DNA of 35,432 nucleotides from a virus. The notes under the pieces are model-generated. The model was not told where the DNA came from. It did no database searches and saw only the letters and a list, made by a program, of their open reading frames with translations. Below, piece by piece: positions 17,884-33,897 of this stretch. Position 1 is the stretch's first letter; each line of letters starts with the position of its first letter. The position numbers and the translations under genes are program-made. The stretch lies in IMG/VR virus record IMGVR_UViG_3300030329_005396, positions 1 through 35,432 of that record. One strand, written 5' to 3'.

Positions 17884-17944
17884 TACCCTCTGCACTCATT
17901 CGGTGGTTTTTTGAATTACCATTTGAGATGTAGAGGGTATTTTT
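17884..17944 (+). terminator. terminator-like hairpin of the rightward gene
   Basis: TACCCTCTGCA (17884-17894) pairs with TGTAGAGGGTA (17929-17939), 10 of 11 positions, around a 34-nt loop and is followed by TTTTT. A small TAGGA/TCCTA stem precedes it. The structure runs into the 3' end of the convergent methyltransferase gene. The long loop weakens the call. Confidence 0.45.
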
Positions 17945-18600
17945 ATTTGCTTAAACTTTCCTACATGTACAGTTGAAAATAAATCGAATGCTTCATCAAC
18001 TGCGTAGGCCCCACCCATTGAGCTGTGAACGTAGTCATCTAGAATCATTATGCCGTCTTTACGTAGCAGCTTCCAACACAAAAGCATATCAATCAATGCT
18101 CCTTCTAATGTATGATCTCCGTCCACCAGTATAATTGTGTATTTTTTAGATGCAATTGTCATACTGGATAAGTTGTTTGCTGAGTCTCCGTTTAGAATAG
18201 TTATTACAGAATGTTCTTTGATATTTAGAGAATCTTTAGTTATCTCTAAATTTCTAGTAGCTCGATCTTTTATTGTGGCACAAGTTTTCTTTTTCCATCT
18301 GCTCCATGAATCAATACCTGTATAGCTAGAAGTTTCATTCTTACAGATTATTTCTCGAAGCATAAAACATGCTGATCTAGCTTCAAAAATTCCTACTTCT
18401 AGATAACTATGAATTTCATTTGGATTTATTACTCTAGTAGAAATCATTTCTTTTATGTTATCAATGGTTGGATGAGTCCAATCTTGCGTGAATTCAAGGT
18501 TACTTGGGAAGCAGTTTTCGTCAATTGATGCTTGGCATTGACAATGTGTATAATCGCAATCGTCATTGTGGAATCGGTTACAAATACTACAGATTAACAT
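17896..18600 (-). CDS. SAM-dependent methyltransferase (class I, Methyltransf_24-like)
   Basis: About 234 aa. An N-terminal Cys/His cluster (CSICNRFHNDDCDYTHCQC) probably binds zinc. Then come class I motifs: YLEVGIFEARSACFML (motif I, SAM loop, degenerate Gly pattern), YTGIDSWS (acidic motif II), ILVDGDHTLEGALIDMLLCWKLLRKDGIMILDDY (motifs IV-V of the sugar or small-molecule O-methyltransferase type). I chose the ATG at 18600 because GGAAC lies 8 nt upstream, the leader form used by other genes; an ATG 17 codons earlier lacks it. Next to a glycosyltransferase, it may decorate a sugar. Confidence 0.75.
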   Translation of the reverse strand: MLICSICNRFHNDDCDYTHCQCQASIDENCFPSNLEFTQDWTHPTIDNIKEMISTRVINPNEIHSYLEVGIFEARSACFMLREIICKNETSSYTGIDSWSRWKKKTCATIKDRATRNLEITKDSLNIKEHSVITILNGDSANNLSSMTIASKKYTIILVDGDHTLEGALIDMLLCWKLLRKDGIMILDDYVHSSMGGAYAVDEAFDLFSTVHVGKFKQIKIPSTSQMVIQKTTE

Positions 18601-18677
18601 TTTAGAAGTTCCGTGTTTTGTATGTATTTTTGTTGTAAAGCTTACAGACAAACTGTCTGTATGAGTAATTAATTACC

Positions 18678-20474
18678 TCAGCCTCTTAGCTTTGTATTAG
18701 CTTCTTTTAGCTTTTCAATTCTATCTATCCCAAGAGCTTTGAATGTGTATTTATGCTTGTGTTCTGCAAATGTTGAGAATGTCAAAAGACAATTCCAACC
18801 TTTTTTTGTAGCTCTATGACACCAATCATCGTCGGCAGCTAGCCCATCTCTAAATTTTTCTTCGTTTAGTAATCCAACATCTTCAATTGCTTCTCTCCTA
18901 AGGAGGGTGCAGAAGAAGGGGAGTTGTTGAACGTAGTGGATACGGGTGTTTGGTTCTTGAAATCTCTTTGTTACTGACCATCCTAGAGTATTATTGATGT
19001 CTTGTGGTTTAGGTTGTTTGCTTAAATGAGTTAGGTTCCAATGCTGTATAAGGCTGTTTGATCCTTGATCGCATGTAATTGGTCCTATAGCTCCATTCCT
19101 AGGATGCCAGTATAGTTGATCTCTTAATATTGAAATTGTCTTCGAAGAAAGATTGCAGTCATTATTTAATATCAAGACATCATTATTAGATTGATTTATT
19201 CCTTGATTGACCGCCCTTGAGAATCCATAGTTTTCTGGATTTTCTATGATGTTTATTTTAGATTGTAATTGACTAGGAATTGAATCTTCTATTTGTTCTA
19301 GTTCAAATTCATCTGATCCATTATCAATGTAATATATTTTTCCTAGTCTTTCTGTGTTTCCAATAAAAACGTTAGCTAAACATTGAATTGTTATGTTTGA
19401 ACAGTTTATCCCTGGAATGATTGCATCTACTGGATTTTCTGTGCGAGGGTTAATTATATTAAATCTCTGCTTTCCTCTATTTGTAAAAGTTACATGTTGT
19501 TTAGAGCATTCTTCTAAGGCTGATTTTTCTTCGCCTATAAAATTGTAAGCACGTCTAAATCCTTCATGCTTACCATGTCCAATTAGTGATGAATTGCTTG
19601 ATGTTGGACTTACAATGTTTGTTTGTATTGGTTCATAGTGTTGGCATAAACTTGGAGAATAGAACCATACTTCTTTTTTTAAGTCTTTAAGAACTGCTGT
19701 AATAAATCCGTCTATTGCCTTTTTTAACTCTCCTTTAGGCAACGGGTTTTTTCCGTATCCTTTCCAGGTATCACATAATGGATGTTCTAATATAGCTTGT
19801 GCTATTTTCCTGGGGAAGATGTACGTTTGAGCGGCTACAATGTAGTCTGTATGTATCTGGTAAGCGGCTGGTTTATTAGTAGTGGACTGGTTTTCTTCGA
19901 AACGATATTCTTTTTTGTTTGGACAATAAATAGAAACTACACCAGTGTTTTCAGATGGCCAGAGTTGGTTTTCTAGAAGCTGTTTTATTTCTTTAGCGTA
20001 TAATACATCATCTTGAAATACTGCTATGGCGTTTGCAGTTGGATGGAGTCCTAGTAGTTCTCTTAGAGTTGCTTTGAAGTTTTCAAATGCTCCAAGTCTT
20101 TCTTTTCGAAATATTGTTACTGCTGATTTTGATTCTGGAGTAGCTGTTTTGTTGAACTTTTTTGTAGGAGTGTAATTTATAGATTGTACTCCCTCATATT
20201 TTTTAGAATATCCAGGAATTGATTCTGGTTCGGTGTGAATTGTAGGGCTGAATCCGGCTGCTCGGCATGATTCTAAGCTGTCAAAAATTGTAGGTATTGG
20301 ACGTTTTGCACAGGTTATACCAGCAGCGATTTTTATGCTAGATTCTGAGTTATTTACATCTCCATATATTGTATTTGGCGATGCAAATGGAACTAGTGTG
20401 TATCTTTGTCTACTTGAAAACTTTGTTGAATGTTTTTGTTGTTTTCTTTGAGCTTTAACTGTTGCTCTACCCAT
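18678..20474 (-). CDS. two-domain glycosyltransferase
   Basis: 598 aa. Domain 1 (about residues 45-320) has an N-terminal nucleotide-sugar-like strand (ITCAKRP) and AIAVFQDDVLYAKEI, where QDD is a DxD-type metal site, as in GT-A enzymes. Domain 2 (about 345-590) is GT2-like: YYIDNGSDE, ENPENYGFSRAVNQGI, VLILNNDCNLSS with the DxD-like NND, and the acceptor-side acidic motif ADDDWCHRA. It probably transfers two sugars in sequence, or has one active and one accessory domain. It follows the Cys-rich virion proteins and precedes a methyltransferase, so virion or host-glycan decoration is inferred. The first 30 residues are basic and likely disordered. Confidence 0.78.
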   Translation of the reverse strand: MGRATVKAQRKQQKHSTKFSSRQRYTLVPFASPNTIYGDVNNSESSIKIAAGITCAKRPIPTIFDSLESCRAAGFSPTIHTEPESIPGYSKKYEGVQSINYTPTKKFNKTATPESKSAVTIFRKERLGAFENFKATLRELLGLHPTANAIAVFQDDVLYAKEIKQLLENQLWPSENTGVVSIYCPNKKEYRFEENQSTTNKPAAYQIHTDYIVAAQTYIFPRKIAQAILEHPLCDTWKGYGKNPLPKGELKKAIDGFITAVLKDLKKEVWFYSPSLCQHYEPIQTNIVSPTSSNSSLIGHGKHEGFRRAYNFIGEEKSALEECSKQHVTFTNRGKQRFNIINPRTENPVDAIIPGINCSNITIQCLANVFIGNTERLGKIYYIDNGSDEFELEQIEDSIPSQLQSKINIIENPENYGFSRAVNQGINQSNNDVLILNNDCNLSSKTISILRDQLYWHPRNGAIGPITCDQGSNSLIQHWNLTHLSKQPKPQDINNTLGWSVTKRFQEPNTRIHYVQQLPFFCTLLRREAIEDVGLLNEEKFRDGLAADDDWCHRATKKGWNCLLTFSTFAEHKHKYTFKALGIDRIEKLKEANTKLRG

Positions 20475-24967: not shown

Positions 24968-27610
24968 CTAACCTATTAATATTTCTTCGGATGGTGTACT
25001 TACTGCATCTAGAATTCCTTCTAGTAGTGCCGTTTGTTCTGTTTCTTTTCCAACTATTTTTGCTAAATGGTTGTTTGTTTTTCTGGCTTCTGCTGTTGTC
25101 TGTTTAGCTTGTACTGATCCATGCTCTATACCAGAAACAATAGAGTTAGTTACTGATTTTGTTTCTACAAATGGGTCTTTTCTAGTCTCTGCTGATCCTG
25201 GATTTAACCCAAATTCTTTTAGACTTCTGCCAACTCCAGATTTAGACTGTCGTAGTTTTTCTATTTCTGGATTAGTGATTTGGAATATCTGTTGTATGTC
25301 TTCTCCAACAAATTGTTTATTTCCACCAGTAGTTATTACTTCTCCAGTTTCTTTATCTATCTGTCTATCTTTAGGTACTTGAAATTCTCTGATTGTTTGC
25401 TTCTCTGCTAGTTCTATTCTTTCTTGTTTTTCTCTTTCTGATCTTATTATGTTTTTAGACTCTTGAACTGTTCTTATTGCAGTAACTGCTTTTTGTCCAG
25501 TTATTCCTTTTTTATCTAGTTTTTTGATAAGTAATTCAAGTTCTGTTTTTGGAATATCTATCTTTATATCTAGAGTTTGCAGTAACTTCTTTGTTTCTTC
25601 GATCCTTTTGGGTTGTTCAATTTTAAAGTCGAAACTTTTGTTTAGAGACCTAATTTTGTTTCTAAGTTTTTCTAATCGATTACGAGCTTTTCTATCTCTA
25701 ATTTCTACTTCTACTTCTCTTTGTTCTCTACTTCTTGTAGCTTCTTCTTTAATTTTTGTTTGCCGTTCTTCAGCTTCTTTTTCCATTCTAAATACAGTAT
25801 TGAATTCACTTTCAAGTTCTATTCCCGAACTTGGAAGACTTGTCATCTTAAAAATGAATTCACTTATACTGTCTGATATTCTAGCAAATATTGATTTTAT
25901 TTTTTCTTGAATATCTATTAAAGTATTGAATACCGTATCTTTAAGTAAATTGAATTGATCAATAAATGGCTTTGTAGCTCGTCTTGCGGCTAGTTCTAAT
26001 CCAGCTTTTAGTACTTCTGCTAGTCCTTCAAAGTCTTGTGCAGCTATAGCTTTGAATGCTGATTCAATTGTATTTGAAATTGTAGCCATTCCAGATTTAG
26101 ATGCAGTTACAACTGAATTGATCATTGATTTAATTGATGATCCGAATTCATTTATCTTTGTAACATTAGCTATAGATTCTATTGCTTCTCCTGCGTTAGT
26201 TTTAAATTTATCTAGATTGTTAGTAGCATCTAGAAGTACTATTGAGAGTGCTGCTATAGCGGCTGGAACTGCAATAAGTTTGCTTGTCAGTAATCCTACT
26301 AATGTTGCTGGAATACCAAGGATACCAGAGAATAAAGATAGAGCGATTGCTGCGGACTTTAGAGATACTCCAAGAGTTATTAGACTTACTGATCCAGCAC
26401 CAAGGGCAGCAGTAATAGCTACAAATGATCTTACTAAAGATGGATTCTTTTCTAGTACGTCTCCAACAGAATCAACAAGTTTAGTTAGAGCTGTACTTAG
26501 AGATATTATTTGACTTTCTAATGCTCCACCAATCTTATCAATTGCTAATGCAGATATTGCTGATTTTAAGCGTCTAGTTGCTCCGCCAATACCAGAGTCC
26601 ATACGCTCTTGGGTTTTCTTAGCTAACCCTTCGGAGTTCTTTAATGCTGCTGTGAATTGTTCTAATCCAAATCCATTTTGGATTAACTTTGAAGCTGACG
26701 TTAATGCTCTTAGATCAAATAGGTCTTTAAAAAATGCTAATCGTTCACGATTATTCATTTTATTTAAAGTAGCATTTCCAATCGAATCAAGAATTTCAAA
26801 TGCTGATTTGGCTTCGTCTAAGGTATCAACTCCAGTTAACTCTAGAATTATATCCTTTTTCTCTGGGAGAGCGAGTAGGATGCGGCGTAGTGATGTTCCC
26901 GCAAGCGACCCTTCTAGGCCATTATCTGCTAACACAGCAATTGCAGATGCTGCTTCTTCTAGCGATAGGCCGAAGTCTTTCGCAACTGGTCCTACGAACT
27001 TCATTGATTCAGCGAAAGTATCTATGTCGTTTGCTGAGTTATTTACAGTGTGAGCTATTACATCAACTACTCTTTGTGTTTCTTTTGCTTCTAGATTGAA
27101 TTGGTTGAGTGTTGATTTTGTTGCTTTAGCTGCTTTTTGAATTGCAATTATGTCTGAGTCTTGGCGTAGTTTTGTAGCTCGACCTAAAGAAACTACGTGA
27201 GGTGTTTGCTCTTGAACATCTTGTAGTGTTGAGCCTCTACGCTTTAACTCTGCTTGGGCTACAGCTACTGCGGTTGCCGTAAAAGATGTAGCTTTTCCTA
27301 CTTCTAGAGCTTGTTTACGAAGTTCTTCTAATGACTTTATTGCTGCATCTGCATTTATGTCGATTTCTGCTGTTGCTAAAGCTTCAAGCTGTTTTACAAC
27401 ATCGTCAAACTCTATTAGCTCTTTTGTGGATAGAGCTATAGGTGTTGCTAGTGCGACAGATAGGACGCCTAAATTACGACCTGTATTAAATGCTTTACTA
27501 CTTAAAGCATCTAGCTTTCCAGCAATTTTATCTAATTGCTTGGAAGCCATATCGAATGTACGAAGCACAATAAATGCTTCGCCGGCTTTTACACGTCCTT
27601 GCGATGCCAT
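24968..27610 (-). CDS. tail tape measure protein
   Basis: 880 aa, the longest late gene, determining tail length. It has the TP901-type core: SLEEAASAIAVLADNGLEGSLAGTSLRRILLAL (about residues 215-250) is a hallmark segment, flanked by long alanine-rich helices. Hydrophobic segments lie at about 395-465 (ITAALGAGSVSLITLGVSL and following), typical of tape measures that insert in the host membrane. A charged coiled-coil region is at about 610-760. At about 1.5 angstrom per residue (known rule) the tail would be near 130 nm. The Gs and chaperones upstream fit. Confidence 0.9.
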   Translation of the reverse strand: MASQGRVKAGEAFIVLRTFDMASKQLDKIAGKLDALSSKAFNTGRNLGVLSVALATPIALSTKELIEFDDVVKQLEALATAEIDINADAAIKSLEELRKQALEVGKATSFTATAVAVAQAELKRRGSTLQDVQEQTPHVVSLGRATKLRQDSDIIAIQKAAKATKSTLNQFNLEAKETQRVVDVIAHTVNNSANDIDTFAESMKFVGPVAKDFGLSLEEAASAIAVLADNGLEGSLAGTSLRRILLALPEKKDIILELTGVDTLDEAKSAFEILDSIGNATLNKMNNRERLAFFKDLFDLRALTSASKLIQNGFGLEQFTAALKNSEGLAKKTQERMDSGIGGATRRLKSAISALAIDKIGGALESQIISLSTALTKLVDSVGDVLEKNPSLVRSFVAITAALGAGSVSLITLGVSLKSAAIALSLFSGILGIPATLVGLLTSKLIAVPAAIAALSIVLLDATNNLDKFKTNAGEAIESIANVTKINEFGSSIKSMINSVVTASKSGMATISNTIESAFKAIAAQDFEGLAEVLKAGLELAARRATKPFIDQFNLLKDTVFNTLIDIQEKIKSIFARISDSISEFIFKMTSLPSSGIELESEFNTVFRMEKEAEERQTKIKEEATRSREQREVEVEIRDRKARNRLEKLRNKIRSLNKSFDFKIEQPKRIEETKKLLQTLDIKIDIPKTELELLIKKLDKKGITGQKAVTAIRTVQESKNIIRSEREKQERIELAEKQTIREFQVPKDRQIDKETGEVITTGGNKQFVGEDIQQIFQITNPEIEKLRQSKSGVGRSLKEFGLNPGSAETRKDPFVETKSVTNSIVSGIEHGSVQAKQTTAEARKTNNHLAKIVGKETEQTALLEGILDAVSTPSEEILIG

Positions 27611-28672: not shown

Positions 28673-29176
28673 CTATTTCCTATTCTGTTTCCATTGTTCC
28701 CTGGGAGGACGATGTACTACTTTTATGTCTTTTGCAGATACTGTTTGTACGTTGTTCCCTGCCATCGCTTTCAGTGTGCTGAATCCGGTTTGGAAGTCTA
28801 GCTTTTTCTTTTTTACTTTGCTTCTGTAAGGGTGCCTGTCTTTTGCTGGCTTTGGTTTGTATTTTGGTTTGAGGGGGAGTACTGCTTTTAGATTGTCTAT
28901 TACAGATTCTAATGTAGCTGTATGATCCCACTTTTCTATTAGTACTGTGTCTGCTCTTACATGCAATTCTCTGAGAGTTATCCGTTTAAGTTCTCTGGGT
29001 CCGATTCCTGCTCTTGCTGCGAGTTGCCAAATTCTGTTTTCAGATTCTCGATAAAGCTGTCTACTTCTTTCTTCATTTCCGCTGAGACTGTCGGAGTTAA
29101 CCCCTCTTGAACTTTTATCAGTTTCTTCATCGCTTCTATCATATTCTCCACAAAGGTCTGACTTTCGTGGAAAAAA
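28673..29176 (-). CDS. tail assembly chaperone T region (reached by -1 frameshift)
   Basis: Reads in the -1 frame relative to the 200-aa G gene and overlaps its last 199 nt. The likely product is a G-T fusion of 302 aa: G residues 1-137, then this frame from the slippery site (join of 29580-29170 and 29170-28673). The T part contains RIWQLAARAGIGPRELKRIT, the Trp/Ala helix and P-x-E-L-x-x-(L/I)-T motif common in T-type chaperones, then a basic Lys/Pro-rich tail that would bind tube or tape measure protein. The ATG at 29185 in this frame is probably not the real start. Confidence 0.7.
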   Translation of the reverse strand, partial: FFPRKSDLCGEYDRSDEETDKSSRGVNSDSLSGNEERSRQLYRESENRIWQLAARAGIGPRELKRITLRELHVRADTVLIEKWDHTATLESVIDNLKAVLPLKPKYKPKPAKDRHPYRSKVKKKKLDFQTGFSTLKAMAGNNVQTVSAKDIKVVHRPPREQWKQNRK

Positions 29177-29580
29177 TCCGAGCATCTTTCAAGAAGTGCG
29201 ATTCTTGCTCCTTGAGTTGTCTGCATATCAAATAGTTTTAGAAATGCATGTTCTGCTTTTGTAGGTATGGTCTTACTTGCTAATTCTTCTCCTCCAAGAG
29301 TATTACTTATTTTTCTAAGTAATACATTTTCTGATTCCCAAAGTAGTGCAGCAACTATGAATGCGGCGAATGGGCCATTCTTTGATATTTCTTCGATTAG
29401 TTTGTTTGGGTTATCAGATATAAATGACCAATGTCCTTCTGGGTTTTCTTCATTTTTTGAAATTGAAGTTAGATCGTATTTTGGAAATACATTCATAGCA
29501 AAGTTAAGGTCAATTTCTGGAACTTCCCAGATATTATCTTCTTTGTCTTTGAATGTATATTGTTGTTTTAGTTCTACCAT
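28978..29580 (-). CDS. tail assembly chaperone G protein
   Basis: 200 aa, acidic, helical. By position (between exported proteins and the tape measure gene) and its overlap with a -1 frame ORF it is the G-type chaperone that keeps the tape measure protein soluble during tail assembly. The segment VENMIEAMKKL and an acidic, Gln-rich C-terminus are seen; there is no enzyme motif. The start is fixed by the leader GGAACTTAAAAATG. A perfect slippery heptamer lies at codons 135-137. Confidence 0.75.
   Translation of the reverse strand: MVELKQQYTFKDKEDNIWEVPEIDLNFAMNVFPKYDLTSISKNEENPEGHWSFISDNPNKLIEEISKNGPFAAFIVAALLWESENVLLRKISNTLGGEELASKTIPTKAEHAFLKLFDMQTTQGARIALLERCSDFFHESQTFVENMIEAMKKLIKVQEGLTPTVSAEMKKEVDSFIENLKTEFGNSQQEQESDPENLNG
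29170..29176 (-). other. slippery heptamer T TTT TTC (-1 programmed frameshift)
   Basis: On the minus strand the G frame reads GAT TTT TTC CAC, so T TTT TTC fits X XXY YYZ exactly. A -1 slip joins the G protein to the T frame (…Asp-Phe-Phe-Pro-Arg-Lys…). No downstream pseudoknot was worked out. The same type of slip makes G-T proteins in most long-tailed phages. Confidence 0.72.
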
Positions 29581-31320: not shown

Positions 31321-31500
31321 TTACTTGTTATTTAGACTTCTTACTGAGTCACCAATAATAAGTGTAATTGCTAATGCAACAATTTCAGCAACTGTTGATT
31401 CACTTATTTCTGATCCAAATTCTTTTAGCAGTACAATCAATAATGTTACTATTGCTGTTTGAGTTCTTCCCTGACTTAAAATATTTACTAATGTATTCAT
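31321..31500 (-). CDS. 59-aa holin-like membrane protein
   Basis: Starting at the ATG at 31500 (an ATG 23 codons upstream overlaps the previous gene), it has two hydrophobic helices: TAIVTLLIVLLKEFG (about 15-29) and VAEIVALAITLIIGDSV (about 36-52), with a polar link and charged ends. Class II holins have two spans and about this length. It lies two genes after the metalloprotease, so together they may be the lysis set. No holin family signature is visible. Confidence 0.5.
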   Translation of the reverse strand: MNTLVNILSQGRTQTAIVTLLIVLLKEFGSEISESTVAEIVALAITLIIGDSVRSLNNK

Positions 31501-31535: not shown

Positions 31536-31835
31536 TTATCTTTTGAACCTGAATATTCTTTTGAACCAATTGGATATATTACTGCTTCGTCTGCATGATT
31601 GAGAGTAGTATCTAATATTTACTTCTTGCTGTTCTCTTTTATCATTTTTGACTAAGTTATATTCTGGTTTTTTGGGTTTTGAATCTTCGCTAATTAATTT
31701 GAAGTCCTTTGTAATTAATACAAAAGGACTTTTAGATTTAATTAAATTATACTCCTCTGAAAATACTTGGCTTTCTCCAAATCCTGTTATTAGGATTATA
31801 AGGGTTATTATAACTTTTCTTAAATAGTATTTCAT
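31536..31835 (-). CDS. exported basic protein of unknown function
   Basis: 99 aa from ATG at 31835, which overlaps the metalloprotease stop (ATGA); an ATG 4 codons earlier is less likely. The N-terminus KYYLRKVIITLIILITGFGESQVFS is a signal peptide or membrane anchor. The mature part contains two similar stretches EYNLIKSKSPF and EYNLVKNDKRE and ends in a basic amphipathic segment NWFKRIFRFKR, like membrane-active peptides. A spanin-like or lysis accessory role is possible but unsupported by family. Confidence 0.6.
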   Translation of the reverse strand: MKYYLRKVIITLIILITGFGESQVFSEEYNLIKSKSPFVLITKDFKLISEDSKPKKPEYNLVKNDKREQQEVNIRYYSQSCRRSSNISNWFKRIFRFKR

Positions 31836-32674
31836 ACGAAGTCCCACATTCCATTACTTGATGATGGATCAATTATATCATATTGCTTTCCATCAATTGT
31901 AAGATTTCCTACTTTTCTTTCGTTTGGAGTGTCGCTTGGAGTGTCTTTGGATGGGCCATATCGATCAAGCATTTGCTTTATTTCCCATGCTTGAGGCTCT
32001 GTAAACCTACCTGTTACAGTAGGATGCATTATTGAATTTGTGCCTGATGTATGACCTAAACCACAAGCATGAAGTAATTCATGAACAATAACTTCTAGCA
32101 ACAATTCTTTTGACCAAGTCTTTGATCTATTATATTTCTGTTCTAATCTTGTTGTACATGATCCATTTGCTAAATAACTCCACGCAAGTGTTCCGTTAGA
32201 TAAGTTTCCTACGTCTGCAAATATATCGCTTTCTTCATGATCCTCTTCAAAAATTAAATTTAGTCCGCTGACCTTTGATATACTTGTTAATGCTTCTAAC
32301 CAAGCATTATCTATATCTTTATCTTCGAGAGGACGTAATCGATGTAACCTTTGACTGCACGTTATACTTCTCATACAGTTTCTAGGCCATGCAGACTGTG
32401 ATTCAGCTTGAACTATTCTATCTGGAACCCAACATTTTCTTGAATCTAGATGTTCCTTTGTAACTGGTCCTAATTCTCCATCAATTATTAATTCAGTTTT
32501 ATACTGTTCTTGATATTTTGCTACAGCTTCTCTGCAATCTTTTTTACTTTTTACAACAGAGCCAAATGATACAGTTGGCATTCCATCTGATTCGCATGGA
32601 CTAAAATATCCAAGTGCCCATAATTGTTCTATAGATATAGTATCTTCTATATCTTGTTTTTCATACGTAATCAT
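31832..32674 (-). CDS. matrixin-like zinc metalloprotease with pro-domain
   Basis: 280 aa. The catalytic site is VIVHELLHACGLGHT: HExxHxxGxxH (His198, Glu199, His202, His208), followed by the Met-turn SIMHP (Met216), the metzincin/matrixin (M10) hallmark. Residues 15-75 resemble a peptidoglycan-binding-like helical domain, as in matrix metalloprotease propeptides, followed by SRKCWVPD (Cys81), matching the cysteine-switch motif PRCGxPD in layout. It therefore looks like a small zymogen. No signal peptide, so it would leave by lysis or in virions. Next to exported and holin-like genes, a role in breaking a protein envelope layer or in entry is inferred. Confidence 0.8.
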   Translation of the reverse strand: MITYEKQDIEDTISIEQLWALGYFSPCESDGMPTVSFGSVVKSKKDCREAVAKYQEQYKTELIIDGELGPVTKEHLDSRKCWVPDRIVQAESQSAWPRNCMRSITCSQRLHRLRPLEDKDIDNAWLEALTSISKVSGLNLIFEEDHEESDIFADVGNLSNGTLAWSYLANGSCTTRLEQKYNRSKTWSKELLLEVIVHELLHACGLGHTSGTNSIMHPTVTGRFTEPQAWEIKQMLDRYGPSKDTPSDTPNERKVGNLTIDGKQYDIIDPSSSNGMWDFV

Positions 32675-33384
32675 TTTTCTACCACTTGAGCGGCTAAGCC
32701 TTTAGCTACTTCGGTAAAAATGATTGTAAAGTCATCCTTTGTTTTCACTTTTCCTGAGGCGATCAGGGATGATAGCTCTGATCCGAAAGGACTTAGTACT
32801 TTATCTGCCCATTCATCCCTTCTGCCTTCTGGAATTACTGCTTGATTGAATTGAGCGATTGTTGGAGCAATTCGGCTCATGTCTGGATTTTGGCCGAATA
32901 ATCCAGCAGATGTCATTCCAGCTACAGTTAGAAATGTTGCCGATATTCTAGCAGCTTCTGAATGGCTTTCGTCTCCTTCTAATGTTTTGTACCACTCTGC
33001 TACTTTTTTATCTATTCCGAATGAAGGGTTAGGTTCTGGAGGATTGGGCTGTGGATTAGGATTTGGAGTTGGACTAGGAGAAGTTCCTGTAACAGTAATA
33101 CTTACATCTTGTGTTTCTGCTTTTTCTCCACTTGAAACAAATAGAATGAATTTTACTTCCCCAGGTTTTTCGGGCCAGACTGCTGCAATCTTACCGTTTT
33201 CAAATACCCTGTAATTTTCATTTTTAATATTACATGCTTTCCAAAGTATTACTTGTCCAATACTTTCTGTAGCATCTAGTATTAATGGTTCTCCAATTTT
33301 TACTGTTTCTGGAGCATTAACTTTTGCAACAATTGTATCTTCTTGTTGAGTAATTGTTGCTAGTAGTAAGATTAGAGTATTCAT
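32671..33384 (-). CDS. PKD-like/proline-linker protein
   Basis: 237 aa. A short hydrophobic N-terminus (MNTLILLLATITQQ) could be a signal. Residues about 20-100 form an Ig/PKD-like beta domain (GEPLILDATESIGQVILWKA... GEVKFILFVSSGEKAETQ). A Pro/Asn-rich linker spans 103-121 (PSPTPNPNPQPNPPEPNP). A helical C-terminal domain follows (125-237). It overlaps the metalloprotease by 4 nt. The layout fits an exported or virion adhesion protein. Confidence 0.62.
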   Translation of the reverse strand: MNTLILLLATITQQEDTIVAKVNAPETVKIGEPLILDATESIGQVILWKACNIKNENYRVFENGKIAAVWPEKPGEVKFILFVSSGEKAETQDVSITVTGTSPSPTPNPNPQPNPPEPNPSFGIDKKVAEWYKTLEGDESHSEAARISATFLTVAGMTSAGLFGQNPDMSRIAPTIAQFNQAVIPEGRRDEWADKVLSPFGSELSSLIASGKVKTKDDFTIIFTEVAKGLAAQVVEK

Positions 33385-33468: not shown

Positions 33469-33897
33469 CTAAATTAATTTCCAAGTGTTGATTGAATTCG
33501 CTTCTGCTTCATTTATGAATTCTTCTAGTAATTCATAATTAGCTTCGTCTTGGATTAACGCAATTAGTCTATCTGCAACAATATCTGAGGCTTCAATAAC
33601 GTCAGATTTGGATATACCTAAGTGTTTTTTTACTCTTACTTCTCTGCGAAATAGCATCCTTAATTGTGTTTGTTGCCACCAACCTAATTCTTTTGCACAT
33701 TCTGTAACTTTTTGTTTTGATTTCTGCCCTAGCTTATCTAAAATTAGTTGCATTAAGATCGGCATCAATAAGTTTATCAATGCTCCAAATTCAAATGCAG
33801 CTAAGGCTTCCTGGCTTTTTTCTAATGGACGTTTTTTGACTTCATCAATCCATAGATTGTTTACCGTATTGGCAATTGCGTCTGATGCAGGAGTCAT
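33469..33897 (-). CDS. hypothetical protein with one hydrophobic segment
   Basis: 142 aa. Hydrophobic helix FGALINLLMPILMQLILDKL (about 37-57) may span a membrane or pack in a bundle; the rest is charged helix. ATG has AAGGAA 8-13 nt upstream. It sits before the PKD-like gene. Not recognised. Confidence 0.6.
   Translation of the reverse strand: MTPASDAIANTVNNLWIDEVKKRPLEKSQEALAAFEFGALINLLMPILMQLILDKLGQKSKQKVTECAKELGWWQQTQLRMLFRREVRVKKHLGISKSDVIEASDIVADRLIALIQDEANYELLEEFINEAEANSINTWKLI

Follow-up and report, generated by a model that had tools for sequence, protein, structure and literature searches.

Why would a bacteriophage encode a protease that is built like the latent matrix metalloproteases (MMPs) of animals, and what would it cut? 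A 35-kb virus contig of IMG/VR raises this question; its whole length of 35,432 nucleotides was analysed and is called the window below. A first-pass annotation based on the letters alone had attributed one of its genes to a phage and read the product as a matrixin, the switch of which would copy the eukaryotic MMP zymogen. The first part stands, as the contig carries genes for a terminase (phrog_38, E=1.3e-21) and for a tape-measure protein (TMP, 24968-27610). No portal, capsid or other head gene was recognised on it, so the contig is probably incomplete, and the order of its genes points to the missing part as the location of the head genes.

A phage matrixin with the layout of a zymogen

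The pro-matrixin open reading frame occupies positions 31832-32674 of the minus strand, begins with ATG and encodes 280 amino acids. Its assignment to the metzincins, made initially from the zinc motif and the Met-turn, is borne out by Pfam, since Peptidase_M10 (PF00413) matches the protein above its gathering score (E=1.2e-7; 32.1 bits for a cut-off of 24); the coordinates proposed at that stage were exact and the strand is minus. In the catalytic zinc motif HELLHACGLGH (residues 198-208, 32051-32083, minus strand), H198, E199, H202, G205 and H208 are invariant across 31 relatives, and in the Met-turn SIMHP (residues 214-218, 32021-32035, minus strand) M216 is found in 28 and P218 in 29 of these 31. 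The N-terminal part contains a helical PG_binding_1-like prodomain (residues 17-76, 32447-32626, minus strand), for which the PF01471 match of the window sequence lies below the cut-off (E=0.0094, 16.6 for a cut-off of 23). Helices are predicted at residues 12-20, 37-41, 44-57 and 70-77 of the first 80 by the structural model, in agreement with the early claim that Cys81 follows a helical domain, and its residue numbering was also correct. This cysteine belongs to the motif RKCWVPD (residues 79-85, 32420-32440, minus strand), recognised from the sequence, the family alignment and the profile; compared with the canonical PRCGxPD it is degenerate, retaining C, P and D, with K in place of R and W in place of G. 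The C-terminal tail is short and has a G-x-(I/F)-x-(I/F)-(D/N)-G-x-x-Y-like pattern. A Kyte-Doolittle window detected no hydrophobic N-terminus, and hence no signal peptide, in the window protein or in any of 80 relatives, and the pro-matrixin has no hemopexin domain. Judged from its sequence, the protein belongs to the matrixins and has a zymogen layout of the MMP type; we do not file it as an animal-type MMP because the histidines for the structural zinc are replaced and both the hydrophobic N-terminus and the hemopexin domain are missing.

An invariant cysteine in a family of phage proteins

Single-sequence searches with the window protein retrieved no relative from IMG/VR or from isolate phages, after which relatives were reached via motif and alignment searches. 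One motif pattern, HE-x-x-HA-x-G-[LF]-G-H, recovered at least 119 matrixin loci from IMG/VR, so phage matrixins are common; most of these loci (L002-L120) lack the cysteine switch. The locus L081, on a contig shared with L121, encodes a protein 55% identical to that of the window, with the motif SRSCRVPD and the same neighbours. An alignment of eight sequences was extended to 94 relatives, 80 of which were retained (L121-L200). In all, relatives occur at about 79 loci of uncultured phages, most of them with 25-31% identity to the window protein and one with 55%, and the protein, for which a search of other phages had been recommended, is therefore no orphan.

The switch is the most constant trait of their N-terminal regions. 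C-x-x-[P/A]-[D/E] occurs at the switch position in 79/79 relatives with a long enough reading frame, in 77 of them with ATG starts and in L133 (PRFCAYPD) and L169 (PRCGHPD) only with a GTG start; most have RCGLPD and L182 has exactly PRCGVPD. In the alignment of 31 phage relatives, 30 rows have a letter at the switch position and each of these letters is cysteine; C81 and W96 are conserved best among the first 100 residues, so that the switch layout of this family is more than chance. Neither is this conservation a product of the search, because the scan patterns were drawn from the LAWSELP and HELGH stretches and not from the cysteine. In all members the switch cysteine lies about 115-134 residues N-terminal to the zinc motif. 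At E<=0.01, PF00413 matches 31/31 family members and PF01471 matches 22/31 (best, 4e-12). A tree built on catalytic domains only groups the phage proteins that bear the switch into a single clade (support 89/99), to which neither the cellular matrixins nor the 40 other phage matrixins belong; the clade appears in 91% of bootstrap trees in a bootstrap that had not settled. Of 75 relatives, the matrixins of about 59 come from a single group of phages, in which many contigs are close to 200 kb long.

Resemblance to MMP zymogens

The best match of the window protein alone in the PDB is pro-stromelysin-1 (E=0.0052), with the switch motifs aligned. With the 31-row family profile, proMMP-1 comes first (E=2e-40), followed by proMMP-9 and pro-stromelysin, and the alignment spans both domains, starting at the first helix of the prodomain and reaching the end of the catalytic one, and RCG(L/V)PD is in register. 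The AlphaFold model of the window protein (pLDDT 83.5, pTM 0.74) retrieves proMMPs as its top 16 folds in the PDB; over both domains, however, it superposes on a proMMP with TMt 0.61 and an rmsd of 8.9 Å, its prodomain not being placed in the proMMP manner, and the segment beyond Cys81 is poorly defined, with a pLDDT of about 56 just past the switch. The model of a relative, L131 (50-row alignment; pLDDT 86.5, pTM 0.81), superposes on proMMP zymogens with TMt 0.79-0.85 (about 0.82) and an rmsd of mostly 3-4 Å, a zinc-free likeness that is not independent evidence since AlphaFold may have learnt proMMP geometry. The predicted structure thus supports a zymogen fold for the relative and leaves the docking of the window protein's own prodomain unsettled. 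As the models contain no zinc, ligation of the catalytic zinc by Cys81 is something that we infer. Latency itself appears well supported by homology, and the protein is very probably a latent MMP-type zymogen.

Relation to known matrixins

Animal proMMP-1, -3, -7, -9 and -10 (MEROPS M10A) have, like the phage protein, a PG_binding_1-type helical prodomain ending in R-C-G-x-P-D and, after it, a metzincin catalytic domain with a Met-turn, a likeness that the family profile captures over the full length. The window protein differs from them by its lack of signal peptide and hemopexin domain, by its RKCWVPD motif and its short patterned tail, and by being encoded among phage genes. Moreover, it has LAW where proMMP-1 has LAH, and DAHFD of the animal enzymes pairs with a histidine-free phage segment; W165 of the former stretch and Gln179 of the latter are each conserved in 90% or more of the family members. 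These S-loop histidines (LAH, DAHF) hold a structural zinc in MMPs.

Three bacterial plasmid proteins, from Paenibacillus sonchi, P. amylolyticus and Streptomyces globosus (L231, L232 and L233), combine a full MMP-type prodomain, a cysteine switch (PRCGLPD, DRCGQPD and PRCGVPD) and a catalytic domain, and are annotated as ‘matrixin family metalloprotease’. Unlike the phage proteins, they retain MMP-like LAH/GHA and VHFxD stretches of the structural-zinc type and fall outside the phage clade in the catalytic-domain tree, and the Paenibacillus ones have larger C-terminal parts. As these plasmids encode such proteins, the MMP-type zymogen layout is, on sequence grounds, not specific to eukaryotes and is rare in bacteria. 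The missing structural-zinc histidines, the lack of a signal peptide and the presence of the layout in rare bacterial plasmid genes together mark the window protein, as far as its sequence tells, as a variant form of the MMP zymogen instead of a eukaryotic copy. The early reading of an MMP zymogen layout consequently holds for the prodomain and the switch, by profile, fold and cysteine invariance, and needs correction in its eukaryotic attribution.

The cysteine switch was absent from the cellular genome matches that we examined. Among 294 Planctomycetota genomes, neither a phage-type pro-matrixin nor a homologue of protein Y, the gene of which precedes that of the matrixin, was found, and the four matches with E<=1e-20 were, by inspection, without a CxxPD switch. 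A Bacillota sample (299 genomes) gave 0 matches at E<=1e-18 and a Pseudomonadota sample (299) gave two, both restricted to the catalytic domain. Karilysin of Tannerella and other prokaryotic matrixins share the catalytic domain (the family profile matches 2xs4 with E=1.3e-25); karilysin is kept latent by an aspartate and not by a cysteine (PMC6949598), in contrast with the switch of the phage family. In a fold search of BFVD, MMPs of insect large DNA viruses (iridovirus, granulovirus, entomopoxvirus and ascovirus) have a similar fold and differ in coming from animal viruses, and the closest phage entry is the uncharacterised protein A0A6J5RTD2.

Our literature search found no paper on phage matrixins with a cysteine switch, a passing mention in the main survey of non-vertebrate MMPs being possible. 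The switch is expected in the MMPs of other animals, plants and fungi (PMC6949598). A study of MMP gene transfer among bacteria, archaea and eukaryotes does not firmly root the family, and its text mentions neither phages nor viruses as carriers (PMC12587646). The invariant-cysteine phage clade offers an ungathered branch for this question of rooting and transfer, and a pro-matrixin devoid of structural-zinc ligands should be useful for mechanism studies.

Neighbouring genes

Protein Y (32671-33384, minus strand) ends within the start of the matrixin gene in an ATGA overlap (junction sequence GAAAAATGATTACG). On the other side, the ATG of a 99-aa protein with a signal-like N-terminus and a basic C-terminus (31536-31835, minus strand) overlaps the matrixin stop in the same way, and L121 has the same ATGA overlap between its matrixin and its own downstream gene. 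These overlaps on both matrixin sides make it very likely that protein Y, the matrixin and the 99-aa protein are translated together. A further gene (31321-31500, minus strand) encodes a holin-like protein of 59 aa, which has two hydrophobic segments and no match in the databases. Protein Y consists of a weakly hydrophobic N-terminus, a beta-rich stretch that looks Ig-like by eye, a proline-rich linker and a helical C-terminus. Leave-one-out HMMs recover its family with E 1.2e-16 to 2.7e-57; homologues lie near the matrixin in L121, L122-L126, L128 and L163, and none was detected in the largest phage group of the family.

Protein X (33469-33897, minus strand) has a hydrophobic segment, FGALINLLMPILMQLIL, with a basic stretch after it, and is possibly membrane-active; PHROGs gave no match for it, and Pfam none that was significant. 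Its family, recovered by leave-one-out HMMs with E 0.007 to 2e-15, has HMM matches in 70 loci of the pro-matrixin family, on the same strand as the matrixin in 70/70 and upstream of it in 64, with a median gap of 20 bp there. For the pattern-scan matrixin loci (at least 119), the matches listed place protein X only in L022, L024, L052, L071 and L081, all of them family members. Counted by lineage, of which there are about 14, X is present in 7 and Y in 6. In L126 the matrixin gene is immediately followed by that of an r1t holin (PF16945, E=2.6e-16; phrog_443 holin, E=1.8e-14), and the matrixin of L163 has a class-3 lipase and a secreted thioredoxin nearby. Secreted thioredoxin-like proteins lie 950 bp (L163, by Pfam) and 2540 bp (L126, by eye) beyond the start of the pro-matrixin, and they have in common with an L121 protein (+830 bp) a C-terminal ‘HL..H...L..LH..H’ stretch; such a neighbour would be a conceivable redox partner for a cysteine switch.

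A latent protease in phage lysis?

The domain order, the motifs, the invariance of the cysteine, the lack of a hydrophobic N-terminus, the overlapping genes and the conserved neighbours, all read from sequence, lead us to propose that the phage makes a latent protease that is let out by a holin and cuts envelope proteins of the host, helping virion release. The zymogen would be made late in infection in the host cytoplasm, in keeping with its lack of a signal peptide; its PG_binding_1-like prodomain would pack on the catalytic domain, and Cys81 would ligate the zinc held by H198, H202 and H208, rendering the enzyme latent. The neighbouring membrane proteins (the holin-like 59-aa protein and protein X) would then breach or disturb the membrane and so allow the protease to escape, whereupon loss of the prodomain, through self-cleavage, a host protease or oxidation, would free the zinc, and the active protease might cut host envelope proteins and so help to release virions. 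Being devoid of signal peptide, latent by design and coupled to membrane-type genes, the protein fits the logic of an endolysin, with a protease in place of the wall hydrolase. We give the whole of this statement a probability of about 0.5.

The nearest tested precedent is the phage-derived metzincin Mtz of Listeria, which, together with the adjacent lipoprotein Tim as its partner, makes cells more sensitive to lysis by phages (PMC8235301). The two systems have in common a phage-linked metzincin with an adjacent partner; they differ in that Mtz is reported to have a signal peptide and an AIMLD Met-turn, that the text makes no mention of a cysteine, and that the partner is Tim, TIMP-like according to its authors (PMC8235301), and not protein Y.

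The first-pass annotation had also stressed that the window has no amidase or lysozyme, and had suggested an S-layer, a proteinaceous cell wall or a maturation substrate as the possible target. The absence holds for the window proteins scanned, among which no muralytic enzyme was recognised; as the window is a partial genome, the argument carries little weight there. It gains somewhat in weight from 22 related phage records, searched for five families, in which Phage_lysozyme, SLT, Amidase_2 and Amidase_3 had no match (0/22) and Peptidase_M23 had matches only below the cut-off, in eight records, all of large phages. These weak Peptidase_M23-like matches count against the proposal as a whole, as do the location of the window gene among tail-type genes, which would allow a role in the virion, the holin-like protein of the window without database match, the prevalence of one phage group (about 59/75 relatives) with protein X in 7 of about 14 lineages, and, for the window protein, the degenerate switch motif and a modelled prodomain that is placed otherwise than in proMMP.

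A farther-reaching version, in which an MMP-type zymogen released by membrane proteins replaces or precedes a muralytic endolysin and the cysteine switch acts as a timing device in the reducing cytoplasm, seems doubtful to us. If true, the MMP zymogen layout would possess an old reservoir among phages and bacteria instead of being a feature of animals and plants. In either version, the use of a latent protease in phage lysis is a testable idea.

Among the other explanations, the protein may be a zymogen of the tail or baseplate, activated by contact and opening a proteinaceous surface layer at entry. The window gene lies between the genes of the contig end and the tape measure, a virion protein is expected to have no signal peptide, and latency would protect the virion. 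However, the structural or packaging genes beside the relatives differ (L121 and L182 have a terminase there, as judged from the sequence), whereas it is the membrane-type proteins X and Y that recur as neighbours, plus the holin in L126, and we find this role in the virion unlikely. A secreted or surface accessory protease without lytic function, shedding a partner or degrading surface proteins of the host or of neighbouring cells, would agree with the conserved coupling to protein Y and would resemble Mtz, which cleaves and releases Tim (PMC8235301). Such a protease is nevertheless distinctly unlikely, as none of the 80 relatives has the signal peptide that Mtz has and no Y was detected in the largest group of phages. 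Maturation of capsid or tail would suit a gene located among late genes and a zymogen controlled during assembly, but the pro-matrixin has no PHROGs match and adjoins membrane-type proteins rather than recognised capsid genes, and the prohead proteases known to us belong to other families, all of which makes this role very unlikely. That the N-terminal domain would be a mere peptidoglycan-binding module, with Cys81 structural (for instance in a disulfide) and no latency, agrees with its PG_binding_1 fold and with the seven cysteines of the window protein and is most unlikely given that C81 is kept in all members, always in the same motif context and distance range before the zinc motif, with RCGxPD in register with proMMP.

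Other observations on the phage contigs

About 2 kb downstream of the matrixin start, L200 has a match to a planctomycete cytochrome C (PSCyt1, PF07635, E=1.7e-4), a hint from sequence that the host of this relative may belong to the Planctomycetota. For assigning a host to the window phage, this match, seen beside the matrixin in L200 only, is too little. A long reading frame of L081 (6845-9661) looks, by eye, like a terminase with an intein-like insertion. In the window, two overlapping reading frames on the minus strand (28673-29185 and 28978-29580) lie just upstream of the tape-measure gene, which we take to be the usual place of tail-assembly chaperones made by programmed frameshifting. 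Also on the minus strand, adjacent genes encode a methyltransferase and a glycosyltransferase (17896-18651 and 18678-20474), perhaps for surface or DNA modification.
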